Part shown: positions 1,510 to 10,014 of the stretch, piece by piece | Layout of the letters: each line of letters begins with the position of its first letter | How positions within the stretch are numbered: the first letter of the stretch is position 1 | Assembly: GCA_030628225.1 (NCBI GenBank) | Contig: DAOVRJ010000035.1 | Location: forward strand, 1 to 14,223 | Direction of reading: 5' to 3' | From: Candidatus Zixiibacteriota bacterium | GTDB taxonomy: Bacteria > SM23-81 | Length of the DNA stretch: 14,223 nt | Notes under the pieces: model-generated | The model's database searches: none | Told to the model about the DNA's origin: nothing | Seen by the model: the letters and a program-made list of their open reading frames with translations, nothing else | Made by a program: the position numbers and the translations under genes

Positions 1510-2038
1510 GTCTGGACCCAACCCGGCGAGAGGTCTGGTGAGCTTCAGCCTATCCTTTGCTTTGGACGCAAGCGAACTTGGCGGGTTTGTCTCAGAGAGA
1601 TCGAAAATCGCAACAATGACAGGCAATCACATCAGGGACAAACTGAAGCAAAACCATAGCCTGGAGCGTATTTTCACTTGGCTGCTAAGAATGGTACGCC
1701 TTACCTCAAGCCAAATTTTGTCTTGACAATAAAGGTGCGTTTAAAGATATTATATTTTCTATGTCACCTACTATGATGGGGGAACATAGGGACATCCACA
1801 TCTACGTTCTAATAGAAAAGGGGCTGTTCCATCCTTTGTTTGCAATATTGCACTGGACATAGTTTATGGTGAGGTAAATATCATTTACGACATTGGGAAA
1901 GCGAACATTGTTGCAGAAAGAAATTGATAGATAAGTCCTTCGTAAATAAATGAACTCACTAGAGAAGAACGGAAAACGATTAAAATATGGGTGCCTTGGT
2001 GCGTTTCTCAGGAGGCCATATTTGAGAAAGGAGAGGAA
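1510..2038. other. Non-coding stretch upstream of the ACP operon
   Basis: About 530 bases with no convincing gene. Short open frames here (for example 1538-1726 on plus, 1802-2062 on minus) lack ribosome-binding sites, domain-like sequence and plausible amino-acid composition. The stretch changes from fairly GC-rich (to about 1660) to AT-rich, marking the compositional boundary of the following operon. The only functional signals I can support are a promoter-like element at 1723-1753 and the Shine-Dalgarno of the ACP gene. No terminator hairpin with a T-run was seen after the lipoprotein gene. Confidence 0.6.
1723..1753 (+). promoter_or_regulatory. Putative sigma70 promoter for the ACP-NagB-ACD-GlmU operon
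   Basis: A perfect TTGACA -35 box lies at 1723-1728. The best -10 is TATTAT (1748-1753, five of six matches) at 19 bp, which is slightly long; with 17-bp spacing the hexamer is the weaker GATATT. If used, it leaves a leader of about 280 nt before the ACP start at 2039. The position, just where the sequence turns AT-rich, fits an operon promoter, but no upstream element was confirmed. Confidence 0.45.
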
Positions 2039-2314
2039 ATGATAGGCCGGGAAGATGTTCAAAAACGGGTGATAAAAGTAACCTCGCAGGTGCTGAGAAT
2101 TGATCAGTCTGAAATTGGGCCCGAATTGAATTTTGTATTTGACCTTGGGGCAGAGTCAATAGACAGCATCACTTTAGTCACTGGTTTTGAAAAAGAGTTT
2201 GATATCGAAATGGATGAGGACTCTGCTTTCGAAGTGCAAACAATAGACAAAGCTGTAGATTACATTATTGATTACTTAGAGAAGAAAAAAAATACGGGGG
2301 GGGATTCTAAATGA
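2039..2314 (+). CDS. Acyl carrier protein
   Basis: This is a 91-residue acidic four-helix carrier protein, typical in size for a stand-alone ACP. Ser40 within LGAESIDSITL is the expected 4'-phosphopantetheine attachment site; canonical ACPs have DSL where this one has ESI. Helix II (residues 40-54) and the following acidic segment (IEMDEDSAF) match the family. It should hold acyl intermediates as thioesters after modification by a phosphopantetheinyl transferase, which is not in the window. The ATG at 2039 is preceded by AAAGGAG five bases upstream. An in-frame earlier ATG (1991) has no ribosome-binding site and would add 16 residues unlike any ACP. The stop overlaps the next start (ATGA), implying translational coupling to the NagB-like gene. 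A dedicated ACP heading a sugar-enzyme operon suggests an acylated product rather than fatty-acid synthesis. Confidence 0.92.
   Translation: MIGREDVQKRVIKVTSQVLRIDQSEIGPELNFVFDLGAESIDSITLVTGFEKEFDIEMDEDSAFEVQTIDKAVDYIIDYLEKKKNTGGDSK
2285..2303 (+). repeat. Adjacent homopolymer tracts A8 and G8 at the ACP/NagB junction
   Basis: Eight A (2285-2292), then TAC, then eight G (2296-2303), inside the last codons of the ACP gene and just before the coupled ATGA. Such tracts are prone to slippage. A one-base change would alter the last few ACP residues and separate the ACP stop from the NagB start. The G tract also sits where a Shine-Dalgarno sequence for the NagB-like gene would be expected. Confidence 0.6.
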
Positions 2315-3099
2315 GAATTATTATTACGAAAGATTACGATGAAATGAGCAGACGAGCTGCATCAATTATTTTCGAGCAAATTTGCAATAAACCTCACTTT
2401 GTTCTGGGGCTGGATGTATCTGATACTGTAATAGGAACGTACAAGGAACTGATCAAACTGAACAAAGAAGAGCGTTTGGATTTTTCAAGGGTGGTGACGT
2501 TTAACCTGGATGAATATTTGGGACTAACATCAACCCATCGTTATAGTTGCCGCTACTTTATGGACACGAACCTGTTTAATCATATCAATATTGATAAACG
2601 AAATATATACTTCCCGAATGGTTTAACCAAAGATCCGCAAATTCTTTGTCAGCAATATGAAAAACTGATTAAAGAAGTTGCCGGGATTGATCTTCAGGTT
2701 TTAGGAATCGGCAGGAATGGTCATATCGGAGTCAATGAACCCGGTTCATCTCTTAATTCTCGTACCAGAATAAAAACTCTGCCAGAGGAAACTGTTCAGA
2801 ATATAACTAAGGTTTTTGAGAAACCCGGAGATGTCCCCAGATTCGCTATAACCATGGGCTTAGGAACCATAATGGAAGCGCGCATGTGCATGTTGTTAGC
2901 CAGTGGAAAGAGAAAAACAGAAGTTCTTGTCAAAGCTATCGAAGGTCCGGTCAGTTCAAGTGTTCCGACCTCAATGCTACAGCTTCATCCAAATGCTATT
3001 ATTATTGCTGATGAAGAAGCAGCTGCCGACCTGAAGCAGAAGAATTATTACCTTTATGCTGAAAAAATGACCCAACAATTGGGATGTGCTCAAATATAA
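2311..3099 (+). CDS. nagB: NagB-family glucosamine-6-phosphate deaminase/isomerase homologue with altered phosphate loop
   Basis: At 262 residues this is close to E. coli NagB (266). The family interconverts glucosamine 6-phosphate and fructose 6-phosphate plus ammonia. Conserved: FNLDEYLGL (Asp67, matching the base Asp72), GIGRNGHIGVNEPGSS (His138 and Glu143, matching His143 and Glu148), SRTRIKTL, the lid/phosphate Lys in SGKRK, and LQLHP. Asn136 replaces Asp141 of E. coli, as I recall for several Gram-positive NagBs. Unusual: the loop TGGTP/TGSTP that grips the substrate phosphate reads V36-S37-D38-T39-V40 (GLDVSDTVIGTY), so both glycines are gone and an Asp would face the phosphate; the Arg172 equivalent appears to be Lys. 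The fold and chemistry are likely kept, but the substrate may not be a normal 6-phosphosugar. It overlaps the ACP stop by 4 nt and lacks a clear Shine-Dalgarno sequence. Alternatives are a biosynthetic (reverse) deaminase or a pseudo-enzyme. Confidence 0.85.
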   Translation: MRIIITKDYDEMSRRAASIIFEQICNKPHFVLGLDVSDTVIGTYKELIKLNKEERLDFSRVVTFNLDEYLGLTSTHRYSCRYFMDTNLFNHINIDKRNIYFPNGLTKDPQILCQQYEKLIKEVAGIDLQVLGIGRNGHIGVNEPGSSLNSRTRIKTLPEETVQNITKVFEKPGDVPRFAITMGLGTIMEARMCMLLASGKRKTEVLVKAIEGPVSSSVPTSMLQLHPNAIIIADEEAAADLKQKNYYLYAEKMTQQLGCAQI

Positions 3100-3101
3100 A
3101 T

Positions 3102-5213
3102 ATGAAAACTAAAAACTTTGAACAAATCTTTTATCCAACGTCGATTGCTGTTGTTGGTGCAACGAATACTCCGGGGACAGTCCCCAATGATATATTCACT
3201 AATATTATGCGAAGTGGATACCCCGGATCAATTTACCCGGTAAGTCCTGGTCACGCCACGATCTCAGGGGCCAAGGCGTATAAATATGTGGTTGATATTC
3301 CCTATCCGGTCGATTTAGCAGTTATAGTTTTCCCAAGTAGCGTCTGTGCTTTGGCGCTCGAGCAATGTGGACAGAAGCGAATCAAAGCCGCAATTGTTAT
3401 ATCAGCTGGATTTAAAGAAATTGGACCAAAAGGTAAAGAACTGGAAGACCAATTAAAAGCGATCGCTGATAAATATGACATATCGATCATTGGACCAAAT
3501 TGTCTCGGTGTGATCAACGCCGACAGCGCCATACAATTAAACGCGAGTTTCGCCCGTAAAATGCCTGAAGAGGGAGCAATAGGATTTTTGTCTCAAAGTG
3601 GAGCACTCTGCACAGCCGTGTTAGATTATGCCTTAAACAAACACATAGGCTTTTCAAAATTTGTGAGTTTTGGTAACAAAGTAGATATCAATGAGGTCGA
3701 TCTATTACAGTATTTACTCAGTGATAAAAAAACAAAGACTATTTTATTATACCTCGAAGAAATAGGTTTAGGAAAAAATTTAATCCAATTGCTGAAGGGA
3801 AATCCTAACAAGAAACCTATATTGGCATTAAAAGCCGGACGAACTTCAGATGGAATTGCTGCTGCTCAGTCTCACACCGGTTCACTGAGTGGGTCAGATG
3901 AAGTTTGCGATGCTGCTTTCAAACAGCTGGGCATCATTCGTGCAAAGAACATCGAAGAGATGTTCAATCATGCAATAGCCTTAACTTACCAGCCTGTCCC
4001 GAAATCAAATAGAATAGCCATTGTTACGAATGCTGGTGGCCCAGGAGTAATGGCCACTGATGCATCCATTGAGAATGGTTTAGAGTTAGCTAAATTTAGT
4101 CCGGATACAAATAAGATACTTAAGAAATCATTGCCCCGAATGGCTAATACTAAGAATCCAGTGGATCTAATTGGAGACGCTCGAGCTGACCGTTACGATG
4201 CGGCCCTGACCAGTATTTCTCGAGATGATAATGTAGACGGTGCCTTGTGTATCCTGACACCGCAATCAATGACTGATATAGAAGCAATTGCTCATTTGAT
4301 CTGCAGAGTTGAAAAAGAAATGACCAAGCCTCTGCTCTGTTCCTTTATGGGCGGAAGTGATGTGTTGAATGGAATTGAGATATTGCAAAAAAGACATATA
4401 CCACACTATGCGTTACCTGAATCAGCCTGTCAATCTTTTGCAGCAACTGTTCGACACAAAAGGTGGCTTTCCCGTCCGCAGAGTAAGGTGAGAAATTTTA
4501 AAGTGAATCGCTCGCGGGCGAAAGAAATAATAGAAAAGTACCTTGGCCGCGGCCAAAGCTACCTGTCCGAGCCGGATGCCTTGGAGATTTTGGACAGTTA
4601 TGGGTTCCCAATTTTGAACTACAAAATAGCTAAAACAGCCAAGCAAGCTGCGAGTTTTAGCGAAGAAATCGGTTTCCCGGTGGCTTTAAAGATCAGTTCT
4701 TCAAGTGTGTTGCATAAATCAGATATTGGCGGTGTACGTATAAACTTAAAAAATAAAAAAGAAGTTACACAAGGATTCAAGCAAATAATCGATAATGTCC
4801 AAGCCCAAAAACGAGATGCTCAGATTCTTGGAGTTATCGTGGAAGAAATGGCTCTTCCGGGCAAGGAAGTAATTATGGGTATTAAGAGAGATCCAAGTTT
4901 TGGGCCAGTAGTTATGTTTGGTTCAGGTGGAGTCTATGTAGAATTAATTCGGGATATCGCTTTCAGAGTCGCTCCGATAACTGAACTGGATGTCCAGGAA
5001 ATGATGAAGGAAACCAGATCATACGTTTTGCTGTCGGGTATCAGAGGCGATAGGCCTGCAGATATTGTATTAGTTGAAGAATGCTTGGAACGTCTTTCTC
5101 AATTAGCTATGGATTTCCCTCAGATCAACGAACTGGATATCAATCCATTGGTTATTTATGCAAAAGGCAAAGGCGCTAATATAATAGATGCAAAAATTAT
5201 GCTTAAAATTTAG
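3102..5213 (+). CDS. ADP-forming acyl-CoA synthetase, alpha-beta fusion
   Basis: This is a 703-residue fused NDP-forming acyl-CoA synthetase (acid + CoA + ATP to acyl-CoA + ADP + Pi, reversible). From the N-terminus: CoA-binding Rossmann domain (SIAVVGATNTPG, residues 14-25), the succinyl-CoA-ligase-like domains (IIGPNCLGVIN, GFLSQSGALC), the phosphohistidine loop SHTGSLSGSDE with His258, and an ATP-grasp domain from about residue 485 with the second His538 in LHKSDIGGV and ELDINPL near the end. Both phosphorylated histidines of the ACD family are present, so it should be active. There is no GNAT domain, so it is not a Pat-type protein acetyltransferase. The ATG at 3102 leaves 2 nt after the NagB stop; an upstream ATG (3084) would overlap NagB. 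Neither has a strong ribosome-binding site. The acyl substrate cannot be read from sequence; it may feed the acyltransferase downstream or load the ACP indirectly. Confidence 0.92.
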   Translation: MKTKNFEQIFYPTSIAVVGATNTPGTVPNDIFTNIMRSGYPGSIYPVSPGHATISGAKAYKYVVDIPYPVDLAVIVFPSSVCALALEQCGQKRIKAAIVISAGFKEIGPKGKELEDQLKAIADKYDISIIGPNCLGVINADSAIQLNASFARKMPEEGAIGFLSQSGALCTAVLDYALNKHIGFSKFVSFGNKVDINEVDLLQYLLSDKKTKTILLYLEEIGLGKNLIQLLKGNPNKKPILALKAGRTSDGIAAAQSHTGSLSGSDEVCDAAFKQLGIIRAKNIEEMFNHAIALTYQPVPKSNRIAIVTNAGGPGVMATDASIENGLELAKFSPDTNKILKKSLPRMANTKNPVDLIGDARADRYDAALTSISRDDNVDGALCILTPQSMTDIEAIAHLICRVEKEMTKPLLCSFMGGSDVLNGIEILQKRHIPHYALPESACQSFAATVRHKRWLSRPQSKVRNFKVNRSRAKEIIEKYLGRGQSYLSEPDALEILDSYGFPILNYKIAKTAKQAASFSEEIGFPVALKISSSSVLHKSDIGGVRINLKNKKEVTQGFKQIIDNVQAQKRDAQILGVIVEEMALPGKEVIMGIKRDPSFGPVVMFGSGGVYVELIRDIAFRVAPITELDVQEMMKETRSYVLLSGIRGDRPADIVLVEECLERLSQLAMDFPQINELDINPLVIYAKGKGANIIDAKIMLKI

Positions 5214-5245
5214 CTGACAAGACGCAACAACAAAGGAGTCATTCA

Positions 5246-6517
5246 ATGCAATTAGTTGTCTTTGAAGATGAAAAGTATGAACAACTATATCCCCTTTCCC
5301 TAACAAGAGCGGTTTTTGAACTAAAATGCGGGATGACCAGTTTGATTGAGAAAATTAGAAGAATGTACCCTACTAATGAAATTTGTTATTTTGTTCGAGA
5401 TTATATTGTACCGACGTTTAAAAAACGTTTCCCATCTGATTCGGTGAATGATATCCGAAGTCTCCTCGACACCGATATTCTGATCATTAATGGGCGATGT
5501 TTATTCATAGATACCCCCTCTGATTTTTTACGCGAAGAAGGATGGGTGGGAGAAAACAACCATGTAGTCCTTGCAAAAATACGAAGAGAAACTTTGGGCG
5601 AGTTTCACGGAGATAATTTGGAGGCATTCCTTAATTATATAAAATCAAAAACAAAAAAAGTGCACATAGACTATAAAATGATCAGTTACCCCTGGGATCT
5701 GATTAATTATAATTCCGAAGCGATTCTTGATGATTTCAAGAACATGAAAAAGGCAGGCATTGAAGGGTTAATAGCAAAAGAAACAGCCATTTATGGCCCA
5801 AAAGAACACGTCTATATCGCAAAAAAAGCAGAGGTACACTCTTTTGTATGTATCGATACGAACAATGGACCCGTGTTTATCGATGAAGGAGCGGAAATCC
5901 ACCCTTTTTCTCGTATTGAGGGCCCTTGTTATATCGGTAAAAATAGTATTATTTTAGGGGCTAAAATTCGCGAAGGATGCTCAATTGGACCTGTATGCCG
6001 GATAGGTGGCGAAGTTGAAGAGAGCATATTTCATGGTTATTCAAATAAATTTCATGATGGATTTATAGGACATAGTTATATCGGGGAGTGGGTTAACCTC
6101 GGGGCACTTACCACGAATAGCGACCTGAAAAATGACTATAGTACTATTAGTGTTATTATAAAAGGAAAACCTGTTGACACGGGAAGTACTAAGCTAGGAT
6201 CATTCATTGGCGACCATACGAAGACGAGCATCGGCACTTATATGAATACTGGAGCTCATATTGGTGCTTTATGTATCATTGTATCTTCTGGAGAAGTTTT
6301 ACCGAAATATATCCCCTCGGGTAGCTGGTTTATCAACAATTACGCAACGAAAGGTTTCGGCTTGAAAAAAATGCTTCAAACAGCTGAAACGGTTATGGCA
6401 AGAAGAAAAGTACAGTATACCGAAGAAGATGCCGAGCTATTGAAAAAAGTATACGAAATTGCTAAACCAGACAGGGATTTGTTAATAAAGAAAACACACT
6501 ATGGTAAAACCTTATGA
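5246..6517 (+). CDS. Alternative GlmU-type sugar nucleotidyltransferase / LbetaH N-acyltransferase
   Basis: This 423-residue protein resembles the alternative bacterial GlmU family (UDP-GlcNAc diphosphorylase / glucosamine-1-phosphate acetyltransferase) found in Bacteroidetes and relatives. The N-terminal region (about 1-175) starts VFEDEKYEQLYPLSLTRAVF and has INGR at 81-84; it lacks the canonical GxGTRM nucleotide loop, as expected for this branch. Residues about 180-370 are a left-handed beta-helix of hexapeptide repeats (FIDEGAEIHP, YIGKNSII, SIGPVCRIGG). The signature NKFHDGFIGHSYIGEWVNLGA carries His270, which lies close to the GlmU catalytic His when aligned by eye. A helical tail of about 50 residues follows. 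AAAGGAG (5232-5238) precedes the ATG by 7 nt. It is the last gene of the operon, 32 nt after the acyl-CoA synthetase, which could provide its acyl donor; related LbetaH enzymes such as LpxA and LpxD use acyl-ACP, so the operon's ACP could serve instead. Confidence 0.87.
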   Translation: MQLVVFEDEKYEQLYPLSLTRAVFELKCGMTSLIEKIRRMYPTNEICYFVRDYIVPTFKKRFPSDSVNDIRSLLDTDILIINGRCLFIDTPSDFLREEGWVGENNHVVLAKIRRETLGEFHGDNLEAFLNYIKSKTKKVHIDYKMISYPWDLINYNSEAILDDFKNMKKAGIEGLIAKETAIYGPKEHVYIAKKAEVHSFVCIDTNNGPVFIDEGAEIHPFSRIEGPCYIGKNSIILGAKIREGCSIGPVCRIGGEVEESIFHGYSNKFHDGFIGHSYIGEWVNLGALTTNSDLKNDYSTISVIIKGKPVDTGSTKLGSFIGDHTKTSIGTYMNTGAHIGALCIIVSSGEVLPKYIPSGSWFINNYATKGFGLKKMLQTAETVMARRKVQYTEEDAELLKKVYEIAKPDRDLLIKKTHYGKTL

Positions 6518-6871: not shown

Positions 6872-6901
6872 AAAGCCGCCGATAATACATCGGCGGCTTT
6901 T
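6872..6901. terminator. Bidirectional intrinsic terminator
   Basis: A perfect 9-bp GC-rich stem, GCCGCCGAT (6875-6883) with ATCGGCGGC (6889-6897), encloses a 5-nt loop AATAC. AAA on the left and TTTT on the right make it work in both directions. It lies between the converging GlmU-like and pmbA genes and probably ends both transcripts; the pmbA stop is about 25 nt away. Confidence 0.93.
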
Positions 6902-6925: not shown

Positions 6926-8266
6926 CTACGTCCCACTCACCATCATCTCGGCCACGCGGAACGTCGGACACACGGTACGCCGGTCGAAGATCAGGTCCTT
7001 GCCCACGGCATCGATGTTCTTGAGCATGTCCAGCATATTAGCGGCGATGGTCACCCTGGCCACGGGCTGGGCCGGCTCGCCGTCTGTGATCCACACGCCG
7101 GTGGCCCCCACAGAGAAATCGCCGGTGACCACGTTGGCGGCCTGGCCGATGGTGCTCATGACATAAAAGCCGTTCTTGACGCTGCTGATGATCTCCTTGG
7201 GGGATATCTGGCCCTTCTGCAAATAGAAGTTGGACGTCCCGATGCCCGGGCGGCGCTCATAGGACCCCCGCCGGGCGCTCCCCGTGGAGACGGTCCCGGC
7301 CTTCTTGGCCGTGGAGGTGTCGTACAGATAGCCCTTGAGCACCCCCTTGTCCACGATAACCTTGGTCTGTGACGGCACCCCCTCATCGTCCACCGACGCG
7401 CTGCCCAACCCCTTGTTTAGCAGACCGTCGTCCAGGATGGTCACCAGGTCGGAGCCGATCTTCTGGTCCACCATATCCACCAGGAAAGATGACTTTTTGT
7501 AAACCGTGTCGCCGTTGATAGCCCCGGCAATGCCCCGCAGGAAGGTTACTCCCGCCCGGGAATCGAAGACCACCGGGGCCGCCTGGGTGGACACCGGCTT
7601 GGCGCCCAGCACGGCCACGGCCCGTTTGACGGCCGTATCGGCCAGCTCCCCAAGGCCGGGCAGGTCCTTGAAGGACCGGGCGTACGAGTACCCCCAGCCG
7701 CTGCGCTGGTCGTTATTGCCCTCGGCCACCACACCAATCCCGAAATCACACCAGGAGTCCTTGTAGGAATGGACCAATCCGTGGCTGTTGGCAATAGTCG
7801 TCTCCCCCACTACGTTGGTGATCCAGGAATTGTCTATCTTGACCACCAGCGGGTGCTTGGCCAGAGCTACTCGCTCTATCTCCTGGATGAGGTGGATCCG
7901 CTCCTCCATGGACATGTCGAACATCTCCGGGTCGTAGATATGCAGGTCGCGGAGCTCCATCTGGCTGGGTTGTGGAAAGACATTGAACTCGTCCGCGGTG
8001 GCCTCGGCGGCCAGGGCCACGCCCTTTTTGACCAGAGTGTCCAGTGCCGCCGCGGAGAAATCCGTGGAGCAGACGAAGGACATCTTCCCATCGATGACGA
8101 TGCGCAGGCCAACGCCCTTGGATGTGGCCTGGTTCATGATCTCCACCTTTAGGTCGCGATTCTCCACATACAGCTCCTGGCCGGTGCTGACGAAGGCCTC
8201 CGCAGCCGTAGCCCCGGCCTTCAGGGCCTTTTCCACTGTTTTTTGCGCCAAATCCTCGTATGCCAT
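6926..8266 (-). CDS. pmbA: PmbA/TldE-like subunit of the TldD-TldE peptidase
   Basis: This 446-residue protein has the TldD/PmbA fold but no HEXXXH motif, which marks it as the PmbA (TldE) partner. Known TldD-TldE heterodimers are cytoplasmic proteases that finish maturation of modified peptides (for example microcin B17) and degrade unfolded peptides entering their cavity. Family features seen: the N-terminal ALKAGATAAEAFVS helix, KGVGLRIVIDGKMSFV, IGSDLVTILDDG, SVDDEGVPSQ, and the C-terminal VTGDFSVGATGVWITDGEP. ATG 8266 has AGGTGGAGA (8271-8279) upstream. It begins directly in the domain with no signal peptide, and the 58-nt gap to the tldD stop leaves no room for one. It is the second gene after tldD and ends at the bidirectional terminator. 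The GC-rich codon use matches the rest of the right half. Confidence 0.93.
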   Translation of the reverse strand: MAYEDLAQKTVEKALKAGATAAEAFVSTGQELYVENRDLKVEIMNQATSKGVGLRIVIDGKMSFVCSTDFSAAALDTLVKKGVALAAEATADEFNVFPQPSQMELRDLHIYDPEMFDMSMEERIHLIQEIERVALAKHPLVVKIDNSWITNVVGETTIANSHGLVHSYKDSWCDFGIGVVAEGNNDQRSGWGYSYARSFKDLPGLGELADTAVKRAVAVLGAKPVSTQAAPVVFDSRAGVTFLRGIAGAINGDTVYKKSSFLVDMVDQKIGSDLVTILDDGLLNKGLGSASVDDEGVPSQTKVIVDKGVLKGYLYDTSTAKKAGTVSTGSARRGSYERRPGIGTSNFYLQKGQISPKEIISSVKNGFYVMSTIGQAANVVTGDFSVGATGVWITDGEPAQPVARVTIAANMLDMLKNIDAVGKDLIFDRRTVCPTFRVAEMMVSGT

Positions 8267-8324
8267 TTTATCTCCACCTGACTGATTGACGTTGGCTTAA
8301 TCTCCTTATAGACTCGGCCCGAAC

Positions 8325-9872
8325 CTAGACCTTCGTGCCTCCCACGGTTATGGCCGAGATGCGGAATTCCGGTGCCCCCTCGGTCACGGCGGCTGTCTGG
8401 CCGGCCTTGCCGCAGAATCCCAGGGTGAAGTCCAGGTTGGGGCCCACCCGGTCGATCTTCTGCATCACCTCCGGCCCGTTGCCGATGAGGATGGCGTCGC
8501 GCACGGGATAGGTGACCTTGCCCTTCTCGATCCGGTAACCCTCGCTGACCCGGAAGACGAACTCCCCGGTCATGGTGTGCACCTGCCCCCCGCTGATACC
8601 TTTGACCAGCAAACCGCTGTCCACTGTGTGGATCATCTCCTGGGGGTCGTCATGGCCAGGGGCCAAAAAGGTGTTGGTCATCCGCGGGATGGGCATATCC
8701 CGGAAACTCTCCCGACGGCCGTTTCCGGTGGATTCGACCTTCAACTGCATGGCGCTGAGGTTGTCGTGCATGAACCTCTTGAGAATGCCCTTCTCGATGA
8801 GCACTTTCCGCTGACCGGGCGTTCCCTCATCGTCTATGGTCAGGCTGCCCCGCTTGCCCATCAGGGTGGCGTCGTCCAGCACGGTGATCAGATCAGAGCC
8901 CACCCGCTGACCCAGCTTGTCGGAGTAGTGGGAGAGCTTCTTGAAGATCCCGTCGCCCTCCAGGCCATGGCCGATGGACTCGTGGAACATGGTTCCGCCC
9001 CTGCCGGCGGCGAGGACCACGGGCATCTGTCCCGAGGGAGCCTCCCTGGCGGCCAGCATGTCCACAGCCTGGCGGGCCGCTTCCCTGGCCATGTCCTCGG
9101 GCGTGTTCTCGGCGAAGAAATCATATCCCACGCGTCCGCCCATAGACTTGAAACCTCTCTGACGGATGCCCCCCTCCTGGGCCACCACGCTGGCCATCAT
9201 CCAGCACTGCGGGGAGCGATCCTGGGCCCATAGCCCTCGGGAATTGGCCACCACGATGTCCCGAAACTGGTCGTAATACACGATGCGCACCTGGGCCACC
9301 CGGGAGTCGTAATCCCGGGCCGTCCTGTTGGCCCGCCAGGCCAAAGCTGCCTTCTGGCTCTCGGGCACACCATCCAGCGGCTCTCGGGTCCGCCAGTATT
9401 TATCCGGCCTGTCCCCGGACCTGAGATCCTTGCGGGCCGGTCCGGCGGTGCCGGAGGCGATATAGGCGGCCACTGCGGCTGTTTCTTTCAGCTTCTCCAT
9501 GCTCAGATCGTCGGAATGGGCGTAACCGCTTTTACCGTCGGCGATGACCCGGATGCCCACTCCCTGCCGGATCTTATACTCGATATTCTTCAGCTTATCC
9601 TCTTCCAGATTCACCCGGGTGTACACCCTGCGTTCGGCGAAGATCTCAGCGTAATCTCCCCCGCGATTCAGGGCCATCTCCAGCAATTGCTCCAGATCTC
9701 TCCGGCCCAGATCGCGAATTGACATAACCTCACCCCCGGAGGCCTCGGCCACAGACCCCAATACTCCCCTCAGGATCATGGGCGAGGCAACCAGGATAAC
9801 ACCGCCCTGAGCGCCCTTTTTGAGGAATTCCCGGCGGGGGATTTTTTTGCCCTGAAGACGCTTTTTTCGCAT
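8325..9872 (-). CDS. tldD: TldD-like zinc metallopeptidase with Tat signal peptide
   Basis: A 515-residue TldD with the zinc motif HESIGH (His297, Glu298, His302) and Cys487 in GFCGKAGQ, matching the HEXXXH plus distant Cys ligand of E. coli TldD; IDDEGTPGQ is also typical. The N-terminus IPRREFLKKG with Arg13-Arg14, a hydrophobic stretch (VILVASPMIL) and an Ala-rich end is a twin-arginine signal, so the folded enzyme should be exported, unlike E. coli TldD. The ATG at 9872 is chosen because AAAGGAG (9879-9885) lies 6 nt upstream and the Tat motif then sits near the N-terminus; the frame stays open to 10010, but that extension is unrelated sequence without a ribosome-binding site. Without the signal the length is about 475, normal for the family. 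It is co-oriented with pmbA and probably forms an operon with it. Confidence 0.93.
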   Translation of the reverse strand: MRKKRLQGKKIPRREFLKKGAQGGVILVASPMILRGVLGSVAEASGGEVMSIRDLGRRDLEQLLEMALNRGGDYAEIFAERRVYTRVNLEEDKLKNIEYKIRQGVGIRVIADGKSGYAHSDDLSMEKLKETAAVAAYIASGTAGPARKDLRSGDRPDKYWRTREPLDGVPESQKAALAWRANRTARDYDSRVAQVRIVYYDQFRDIVVANSRGLWAQDRSPQCWMMASVVAQEGGIRQRGFKSMGGRVGYDFFAENTPEDMAREAARQAVDMLAAREAPSGQMPVVLAAGRGGTMFHESIGHGLEGDGIFKKLSHYSDKLGQRVGSDLITVLDDATLMGKRGSLTIDDEGTPGQRKVLIEKGILKRFMHDNLSAMQLKVESTGNGRRESFRDMPIPRMTNTFLAPGHDDPQEMIHTVDSGLLVKGISGGQVHTMTGEFVFRVSEGYRIEKGKVTYPVRDAILIGNGPEVMQKIDRVGPNLDFTLGFCGKAGQTAAVTEGAPEFRISAITVGGTKV

Positions 9873-10014
9873 ATGAGACTCCTTTACAATGCATCCACCA
9901 CTCTTTTTAAGATGGCGATGCTCATCATGTATCACATATCGATGCTCGAGGCTCGTATTGAGACCGGATGCTGGCGAAAAGCAGACGGTTCGCCCATCCT
10001 TCATGGTCACGATA

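Follow-up and report, generated by a model that had tools for sequence, protein, structure and literature searches.

A four-gene operon of a Candidatus Zixiibacteriota bacterium as a possible variant of a conserved module joining acetate activation, a separate acyl carrier protein and an alternative GlmU

The operon and its gene products

The stretch analysed here, referred to as the window, comprises 14,223 nucleotides of contig DAOVRJ010000035.1 from a Candidatus Zixiibacteriota bacterium (assembly GCA_030628225.1; genome G000 below). It carries on the plus strand an operon of four genes encoding an acyl carrier protein (ACP; 2039..2314), a NagB homologue (2311..3099), an ADP-forming acyl-coenzyme A (CoA) synthetase (3102..5213) and an alternative GlmU (5246..6517). 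The first two genes overlap by 4 nt, the following gaps are 2 and 32 nt, and Shine-Dalgarno-like sequences are found upstream of the ACP and GlmU genes. The initial annotation had given the same four reading frames, order and spacing, and its four family identities hold in Pfam and NCBIfam profile matches. Purifying selection acts on each of the four, with nonsynonymous divergence (dN) of about 0.08–0.18 and synonymous divergence (dS) from 0.66 to saturated.

The ACP, of 91 residues, is a PP-binding domain protein (PF00550, 47 bits against a cut-off of 20.8) that stays under the cut-off of the fatty-acid ACP equivalog TIGR00517 (60.6 against 70.45 bits). Its phosphopantetheine attachment serine, Ser40 (codon 2156..2158, plus strand), is invariant in the alignment with the ACPs of similar loci, here called module ACPs, and in the ACP tree a branch with support of 97/94 separates these from fatty-acid ACPs, including those that occur in the same genomes. 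Helix II reads GAES-[VI]-Q-S-[LI]-ELVAAFE in module ACPs compared with GADSLDTVELVMALEE in fatty-acid ACPs; the window ACP belongs to the module subtype, with the helix II pattern GAES-[IV]-[QD]-S...F-E. Most bacteria with the module have both kinds.

The NagB homologue (262 residues, glucosamine-6-phosphate deaminase family) scores 284 bits with the equivalog model TIGR00502, above the cut-off of 236.9, retains Asp67, His138, Glu143 and Lys202 in the alignment, and has a predicted structure with a predicted local distance difference test score (pLDDT) of 90.1. Its phosphate-binding loop (2413..2436, plus strand) reads DVSDTVIG compared with the canonical ATGSTPxG, and the protein is called a NagB homologue, with no deaminase activity claimed, because the canonical loop is replaced. 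The rebuilt loop DVS[DN]T[VI]IG is common to the NagBs of all three genomes where a synthetase is part of the gene set, with DVSDT in the window and in an Elusimicrobium and DVSNT in genome G074, and each of these genomes has a canonical NagB as well. In the NagB of Streptococcus mutans (SmuNagB) the phosphate is held by a serine and a threonine of the loop and by Lys194 (PMC8369159); of these contacts Thr39 and Lys202 are retained in the window protein, and the serine is replaced by Asp (Asp or Asn across the synthetase type). A change of substrate is possible. The dS between the window and G074 is 2.2 for NagB and 0.7–1.0 for the ACP, synthetase and GlmU genes, a hint that NagB has recombined or had a history of its own.

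The synthetase, of 703 residues and acetate/4-hydroxybutyrate type, has PF13607, PF13549, the CoA-binding, ligase-CoA and ATP-grasp domains and an SHTGS motif, the histidine of which, His258 (codon 3873..3875, plus strand), is presumably the phosphohistidine expected from the family. The closest NCBIfam model is NF045493 for 4-hydroxybutyrate-CoA ligase (713 bits, under the equivalog cut-off of 1300), and the score with TIGR02717 for ADP-forming acetate-CoA ligase is 548.6 bits, under the cut-off of 567.15.

The alternative GlmU has 423 residues forming an N-domain like those of nucleoside triphosphate (NTP) transferases, an LbetaH domain and C-terminal helices, and passes TIGR03991 with 381 bits against 225.3, residues 1–403 covering positions 1–394 of the 394 in the model. 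In the predicted structure (pLDDT 89.0) the N-domain fold matches nucleotidyltransferases, and the best fold match is ST0452 (Z 33.1, root-mean-square deviation 2.9, 319 residues) over both domains. A profile alignment with the PDB places His270 (codon 6053..6055, plus strand) at the acetyltransferase histidine His308 of ST0452, and this histidine is invariant in the GlmU alignment. When compared by profile with true GlmU N-domains, the module GlmU shared no more than 26 aligned columns, confined to the repeats.

Distribution and conserved linkage of the gene set

The window GlmU was searched against 60 genomes, with a second, canonical copy in G000 and copies elsewhere. When about 85,000 species genomes were scanned with a subfamily alignment, 31 loci came out, and phylum-wide searches and wider regions extended this set. 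The nearest GlmU relatives have ACP and NagB genes adjoining, with Pta and AckA in the place of the synthetase. The synthetase type was found in three genomes, namely G000, one Elusimicrobium (L053/L224) and G074 (L229 and L201); the four-gene order of the window is kept in the Elusimicrobium, and in G074 the operon is divided by a contig break. The order NagB-Pta-GlmU-ACP-AckA occurs in most genomes of one further phylum, where a GlmU match is present in 29 of 35 genomes, and Pta-AckA-GlmU-ACP, with or without NagB, in Desantisbacteria, Omnitrophota and Aerophobetes. Bathyarchaeota B24 has Pta-AckA-GlmU-ACP-AcpS in one gene run (L056:5716-9981), and ACP-Pta-AckA-GlmU lies amid Wood-Ljungdahl genes at L059. 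At L230 a gene for WecB (UDP-GlcNAc 2-epimerase, where UDP-GlcNAc is UDP-N-acetylglucosamine) stands before Pta, followed by GlmU-ACP with GlmM directly after the ACP, and L040 has GlmM-NagB-GlmU; such neighbours fit a pathway that runs toward synthesis.

A tree of 81 GlmU sequences has 42 rows in a module clade (support 97/80) and 39 rows of other alternative GlmUs. An ACP gene is adjacent in 36 of the 42, an acetate-activating gene (Pta, AckA or synthetase) in 40 and NagB in 27. Among the 39 others an ACP gene is nearby in three, two being fatty-acid clusters and one lying beside a module, and four stand beside GlmS. The Fisher p, with relatedness ignored, is 3e-13; the set also reappears across several phyla with its genes differently ordered, beyond what chance would give. 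The neighbourhood comparison proposed with the initial annotation therefore finds the set conserved, and supports its idea of grouping an enzyme that activates an acid with an ACP and an LbetaH transferase of GlmU type. Of 294 Elusimicrobiota genomes, only that of the Elusimicrobium named above had a GlmU match scoring at module level. No description of the gene set was found in the open-access literature searched, in line with the initial annotation, which knew of no described pathway with it, and the module has apparently not been described before.

Pairs of an alternative GlmU (TIGR03991) with an adjoining amino-sugar phosphate enzyme, NagB-GlmU in Ignavibacteria and GlmS-GlmU in Aerophobetes, belong to the same family but stand without ACP or acetate activation and fall in other clades. 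The Aerophobetes arrangement, GlmS followed by a distant alternative GlmU (L210:119-3135, also L160-L162), is likely a housekeeping UDP-GlcNAc pair. G074 encodes a DUF4954 protein (PF16314; L229:6249-8141) between a canonical NagB and its ACP, and this protein may be part of the synthetase-type module.

The module Pta and AckA pass the cut-offs of TIGR00651 and TIGR00016 respectively and do not pass the butyrate models, remaining so far under the butyrate cut-offs that a butyrate-type Ptb-Buk identity is ruled out. AckA is missing from all three synthetase-type genomes (0/3); in 18 of the 20 other module genomes it lies inside the module, 16 of these having no further AckA. The three synthetase-type GlmUs form one clade (100/100) nested among the Pta-AckA types (enclosing fork 93/99), and because of this nesting and the absence of AckA from those genomes, the synthetase is seen to have replaced Pta-AckA as a predicted functional equivalent.

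In the archaeal class of G063 an ACP occurs in the two module genomes alone, which are near-identical; five others lack it (0/5), and the holo-ACP synthase gene of the archaeal module lies directly 3' of the ACP gene, which argues that the ACP works for the module.

The operon has a GC content of 38–41%, or 34–39% at third codon positions, compared with 53–61% for nearly all flanking genes and 54–59% for other contigs of the genome, and NagB and the operon are absent from the closest relatives of the window genome that were compared. Because the operon is AT-rich and missing from these relatives, the simplest reading is that it was probably gained horizontally and recently from an AT-rich donor. 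Mis-assembly of the contig is conceivable and would leave the conserved set unaffected.

A possible route from acetate to an amino-sugar nucleotide

The favoured reading, with a probability of about one half, takes the operon as one variant, acquired by horizontal transfer, of a conserved module; the module would convert acetate into an amino-sugar nucleotide, most likely UDP-GlcNAc, on a carrier protein dedicated to acetyl groups. The ADP-forming synthetase, or Pta and AckA in most relatives, would make acetyl-CoA from acetate, ATP and CoA. The acetyl group could then be placed on the holo-ACP of the operon by the activating enzymes directly, by AcpS as acetyl-phosphopantetheine, or by a transacylase encoded elsewhere, and the LbetaH domain of the GlmU-like protein would transfer it from acetyl-ACP to glucosamine-1-phosphate. 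NagB in the aminating direction could combine fructose-6-phosphate with ammonia into glucosamine-6-phosphate, and GlmM would take the intermediate step; where the NagB is of the diverged window type, a canonical NagB is available elsewhere. The acid is most likely acetate, because the Pta and AckA of most relatives pass the acetate-family cut-offs, and for the window type acetate is what we infer; no exotic acyl sugar is therefore required. NagB as a stand-in for a missing GlmS is rejected as a general reason for the module, since 9 of the 14 genomes searched, G000 among them, have a GlmS over its cut-off.

The conserved linkage and the separate ACP lineage speak, indirectly, for acetyl-ACP as the putative donor for the module GlmU. 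The GlmU of E. coli binds ACP and has an apparent Michaelis constant of 20 uM for acetyl-ACP and 400 uM for acetyl-CoA (Whaley et al. 2021, PMC8666670). Because this enzyme prefers acetyl-ACP, the premise of the initial annotation that a plain UDP-GlcNAc route needs no ACP does not stand; its idea of acyl transfer was right in outline, with acetate as the most likely acid. The E. coli system, where MadA/MadB (malonyl-ACP decarboxylase) supplies the acetyl-ACP, resembles the proposed module in that glucosamine-1-phosphate is acetylated preferentially from ACP on the way to UDP-GlcNAc, a role for ACP that is here suggested by the genes. It differs in that E. coli uses the general fatty-acid ACP, acetyl-ACP derived from malonyl-ACP and a GlmU of TIGR01173, whereas the module has a separate ACP gene beside GlmU, linked acetate activation and a GlmU of the alternative family. 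The best fold match, ST0452, a bifunctional sugar-1-phosphate nucleotidylyltransferase/acetyltransferase of Sulfolobus tokodaii, is about 28% identical to the window GlmU but carries standard nucleotidyltransferase motifs, and we know of no ACP linked to it. LpxA and LpxD are likewise LbetaH trimers with C-terminal helices, but they use UDP-sugars and hydroxyacyl-ACP, and the window GlmU has only weak repeat-level sequence matches to them. In the structure comparison the acyl-ACP user LpxA matches GlmU over the LbetaH domain and onward through the C-terminal helices as far as residue 417, and in LpxD the ACP recognition domain is the C-terminal helix bundle (PMC6820557). The C-terminal tail of module-clade GlmUs is longer and more basic (p 3e-9, relatedness uncorrected); no difference was seen in net positive charge over the LbetaH part as a whole, which was taken as a signal of ACP docking (p 0.29). 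Pta-AckA and ADP-forming acetyl-CoA synthetase systems, whose families are confirmed here, carry out the same net interconversion of acetate and acetyl-CoA but are usually read as energy-yielding, whereas the module copies are linked to GlmU and ACP.

Several observations weigh against the proposed route. Pta and the synthetase are CoA enzymes, which leaves the passage of acetyl onto the ACP unexplained, and the window synthetase is under the curated cut-offs of every substrate-specific model, so that with the acetate and 4-hydroxybutyrate models both under cut-off the family alone does not fix the substrate. The window NagB may not make glucosamine-6-phosphate, since its phosphate loop is altered. 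A few module loci are without ACP (L054, L193), and in G000, which is 92% complete, the window ACP is the sole PP-binding match, so that it might also serve fatty-acid synthesis there. The N-domain of the window GlmU, like the alternative GlmU family in general, is without the usual glycine-rich NTP loop, which makes uridylyl transfer by the module GlmU uncertain. Since separate GlmU N-domains with the loop occur in G000 (C41) and directly 3' of the module in G074, we infer that uridylyl transfer may be shared with them. Besides its lone GlmU N-domain, G000 holds GlmS (834 bits) with adjoining GlmM and another alternative GlmU. The module is therefore dispensable for basal UDP-GlcNAc, and the window GlmU is not the only UDP-GlcNAc enzyme of the genome, a case that the initial annotation had raised against itself. 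The protein encoded directly after the module GlmU in G074 (L201:3739-5262) has 507 residues, resembles a GlmU N-domain and carries hexapeptide repeats, and the alternative GlmU at L042 has a similar neighbour.

A more novel version, and an unlikely one compared with the UDP-GlcNAc reading, is an ACP-dependent amino-sugar pathway of deep-branching bacteria and archaea, not described before, where the activating enzymes would charge the dedicated carrier directly and the carrier would feed the alternative GlmU; in the synthetase type the re-tooled NagB would make a different amino sugar and so lead to a new amino-sugar nucleotide.

A pathway of the kind sketched in the initial annotation, in which the acid is other than acetate, the acyl group on the ACP is longer or modified, and a new N-acyl amino-sugar nucleotide is made by the LbetaH domain, is quite unlikely. 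LpxA and LpxD, of the same fold, do use acyl-ACP, the window synthetase is nearest to a 4-hydroxybutyrate model and not to a pure acetate model, and NagB is altered in all three synthetase-type genomes; but the activating enzymes of the relatives mostly pass as acetate-family and lie far under the butyrate cut-offs, no genes for making acyl-ACP (Fab enzymes) lie within the module, and the precedent of E. coli GlmU is acetyl (PMC8666670).

The genes may instead share no pathway: Pta-AckA would be the chief operon for acetate energy, with growth-linked genes for ACP and GlmU as its neighbours, or the ACP would regulate them. The plain housekeeping flanks at L214-L220 (plsC-, ispH- and rpsA-like reading frames) would suit this explanation, and Pta-AckA with acp near plsX is common in Firmicutes. 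It becomes improbable given a set that is kept in several phyla with different orders and unrelated flanks, that apparently moved into G000 as a unit (GC 38–41% against 53–61% in nearly all flanking genes), where Pta-AckA has been swapped for a functional equivalent, and whose ACP is of a distinct lineage.

Slightly harder still to uphold is a catabolic or energy module, where NagB deaminates amino sugars, Pta-AckA or the synthetase yields ATP from acetate or acetyl-CoA, and GlmU and ACP recycle amino sugars. NagB is usually catabolic, the module AckA is the sole AckA in most module genomes, and L059 lies between genes for RACo and formate-tetrahydrofolate ligase in a Wood-Ljungdahl cluster. 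Against this, none of the genes that recur at the module loci was recognised as one for NagA, a transporter or a sugar kinase, the GlmM and WecB neighbours indicate synthesis, the ACP is left unexplained, and the direction from acetyl-amide to ATP is energetically poor.

Acetylation of the ACP to prime fatty-acid synthesis, with acetyl-ACP in place of FabH initiation and GlmU at most a second user, is very improbable, the module archaea being without any other ACP, archaea to our knowledge not being expected to have such a fatty-acid system, and module ACPs being unlike the fatty-acid ACPs encoded alongside them in their genomes. In its favour are that the window ACP is the sole ACP match in G000 and that acetyl-ACP feeds FabB/F in E. 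coli (PMC8666670).

Flanking features and biological meaning

The initial annotation had given the operon one shared promoter-like site and one shared terminator. A promoter-like site, TTGACA-17-GATATT, is indeed present upstream (1723..1751, plus strand) but matches at 10 of 12 positions and is weak, and the window holds 23 such sites compared with 16 +/- 3.6 in shuffles, which is not clearly above chance. A strong hairpin of 13 pairs (6872..6900, no strand assigned), possibly a bidirectional terminator, starts 355 nt downstream of GlmU, between the operon and the convergent TldE gene, and could serve both. On the minus strand beyond it (6926-10010) are two adjoining genes for PmbA/TldD-family metallopeptidases, the longer one with a twin-arginine-like leader. 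Upstream of the operon, positions 505-1509 hold a lipoprotein-like reading frame of 334 residues with no Pfam or NCBIfam match, and positions 1-411 encode a C-terminal sorting-like domain (SFALYQNYPNPFN...) typical of type IX secretion cargo, which is AT-rich like the operon.

How widely GlmU uses acetyl-ACP outside Proteobacteria was left open by Whaley et al. (PMC8666670), because the known source of acetyl-ACP (Mad) is confined to Proteobacteria. At the level of genomes the module brings a case from other phyla and from an archaeon, where the carrier protein is a separate one, and four small proteins would be enough to test the question directly. The retention of an ACP and a holo-ACP synthase by an archaeon may find its explanation in the module. 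In metagenome-assembled genomes Pta-AckA, often with the sole AckA, need not imply fermentation or acetogenesis, because in module genomes it sits in an amino-sugar operon; the Pta-AckA of Bathyarchaeon B24 may not be for acetogenesis. The gene set suggests that microbes with the module carry acetate into amino sugars on a dedicated carrier protein, beyond coenzyme A alone.

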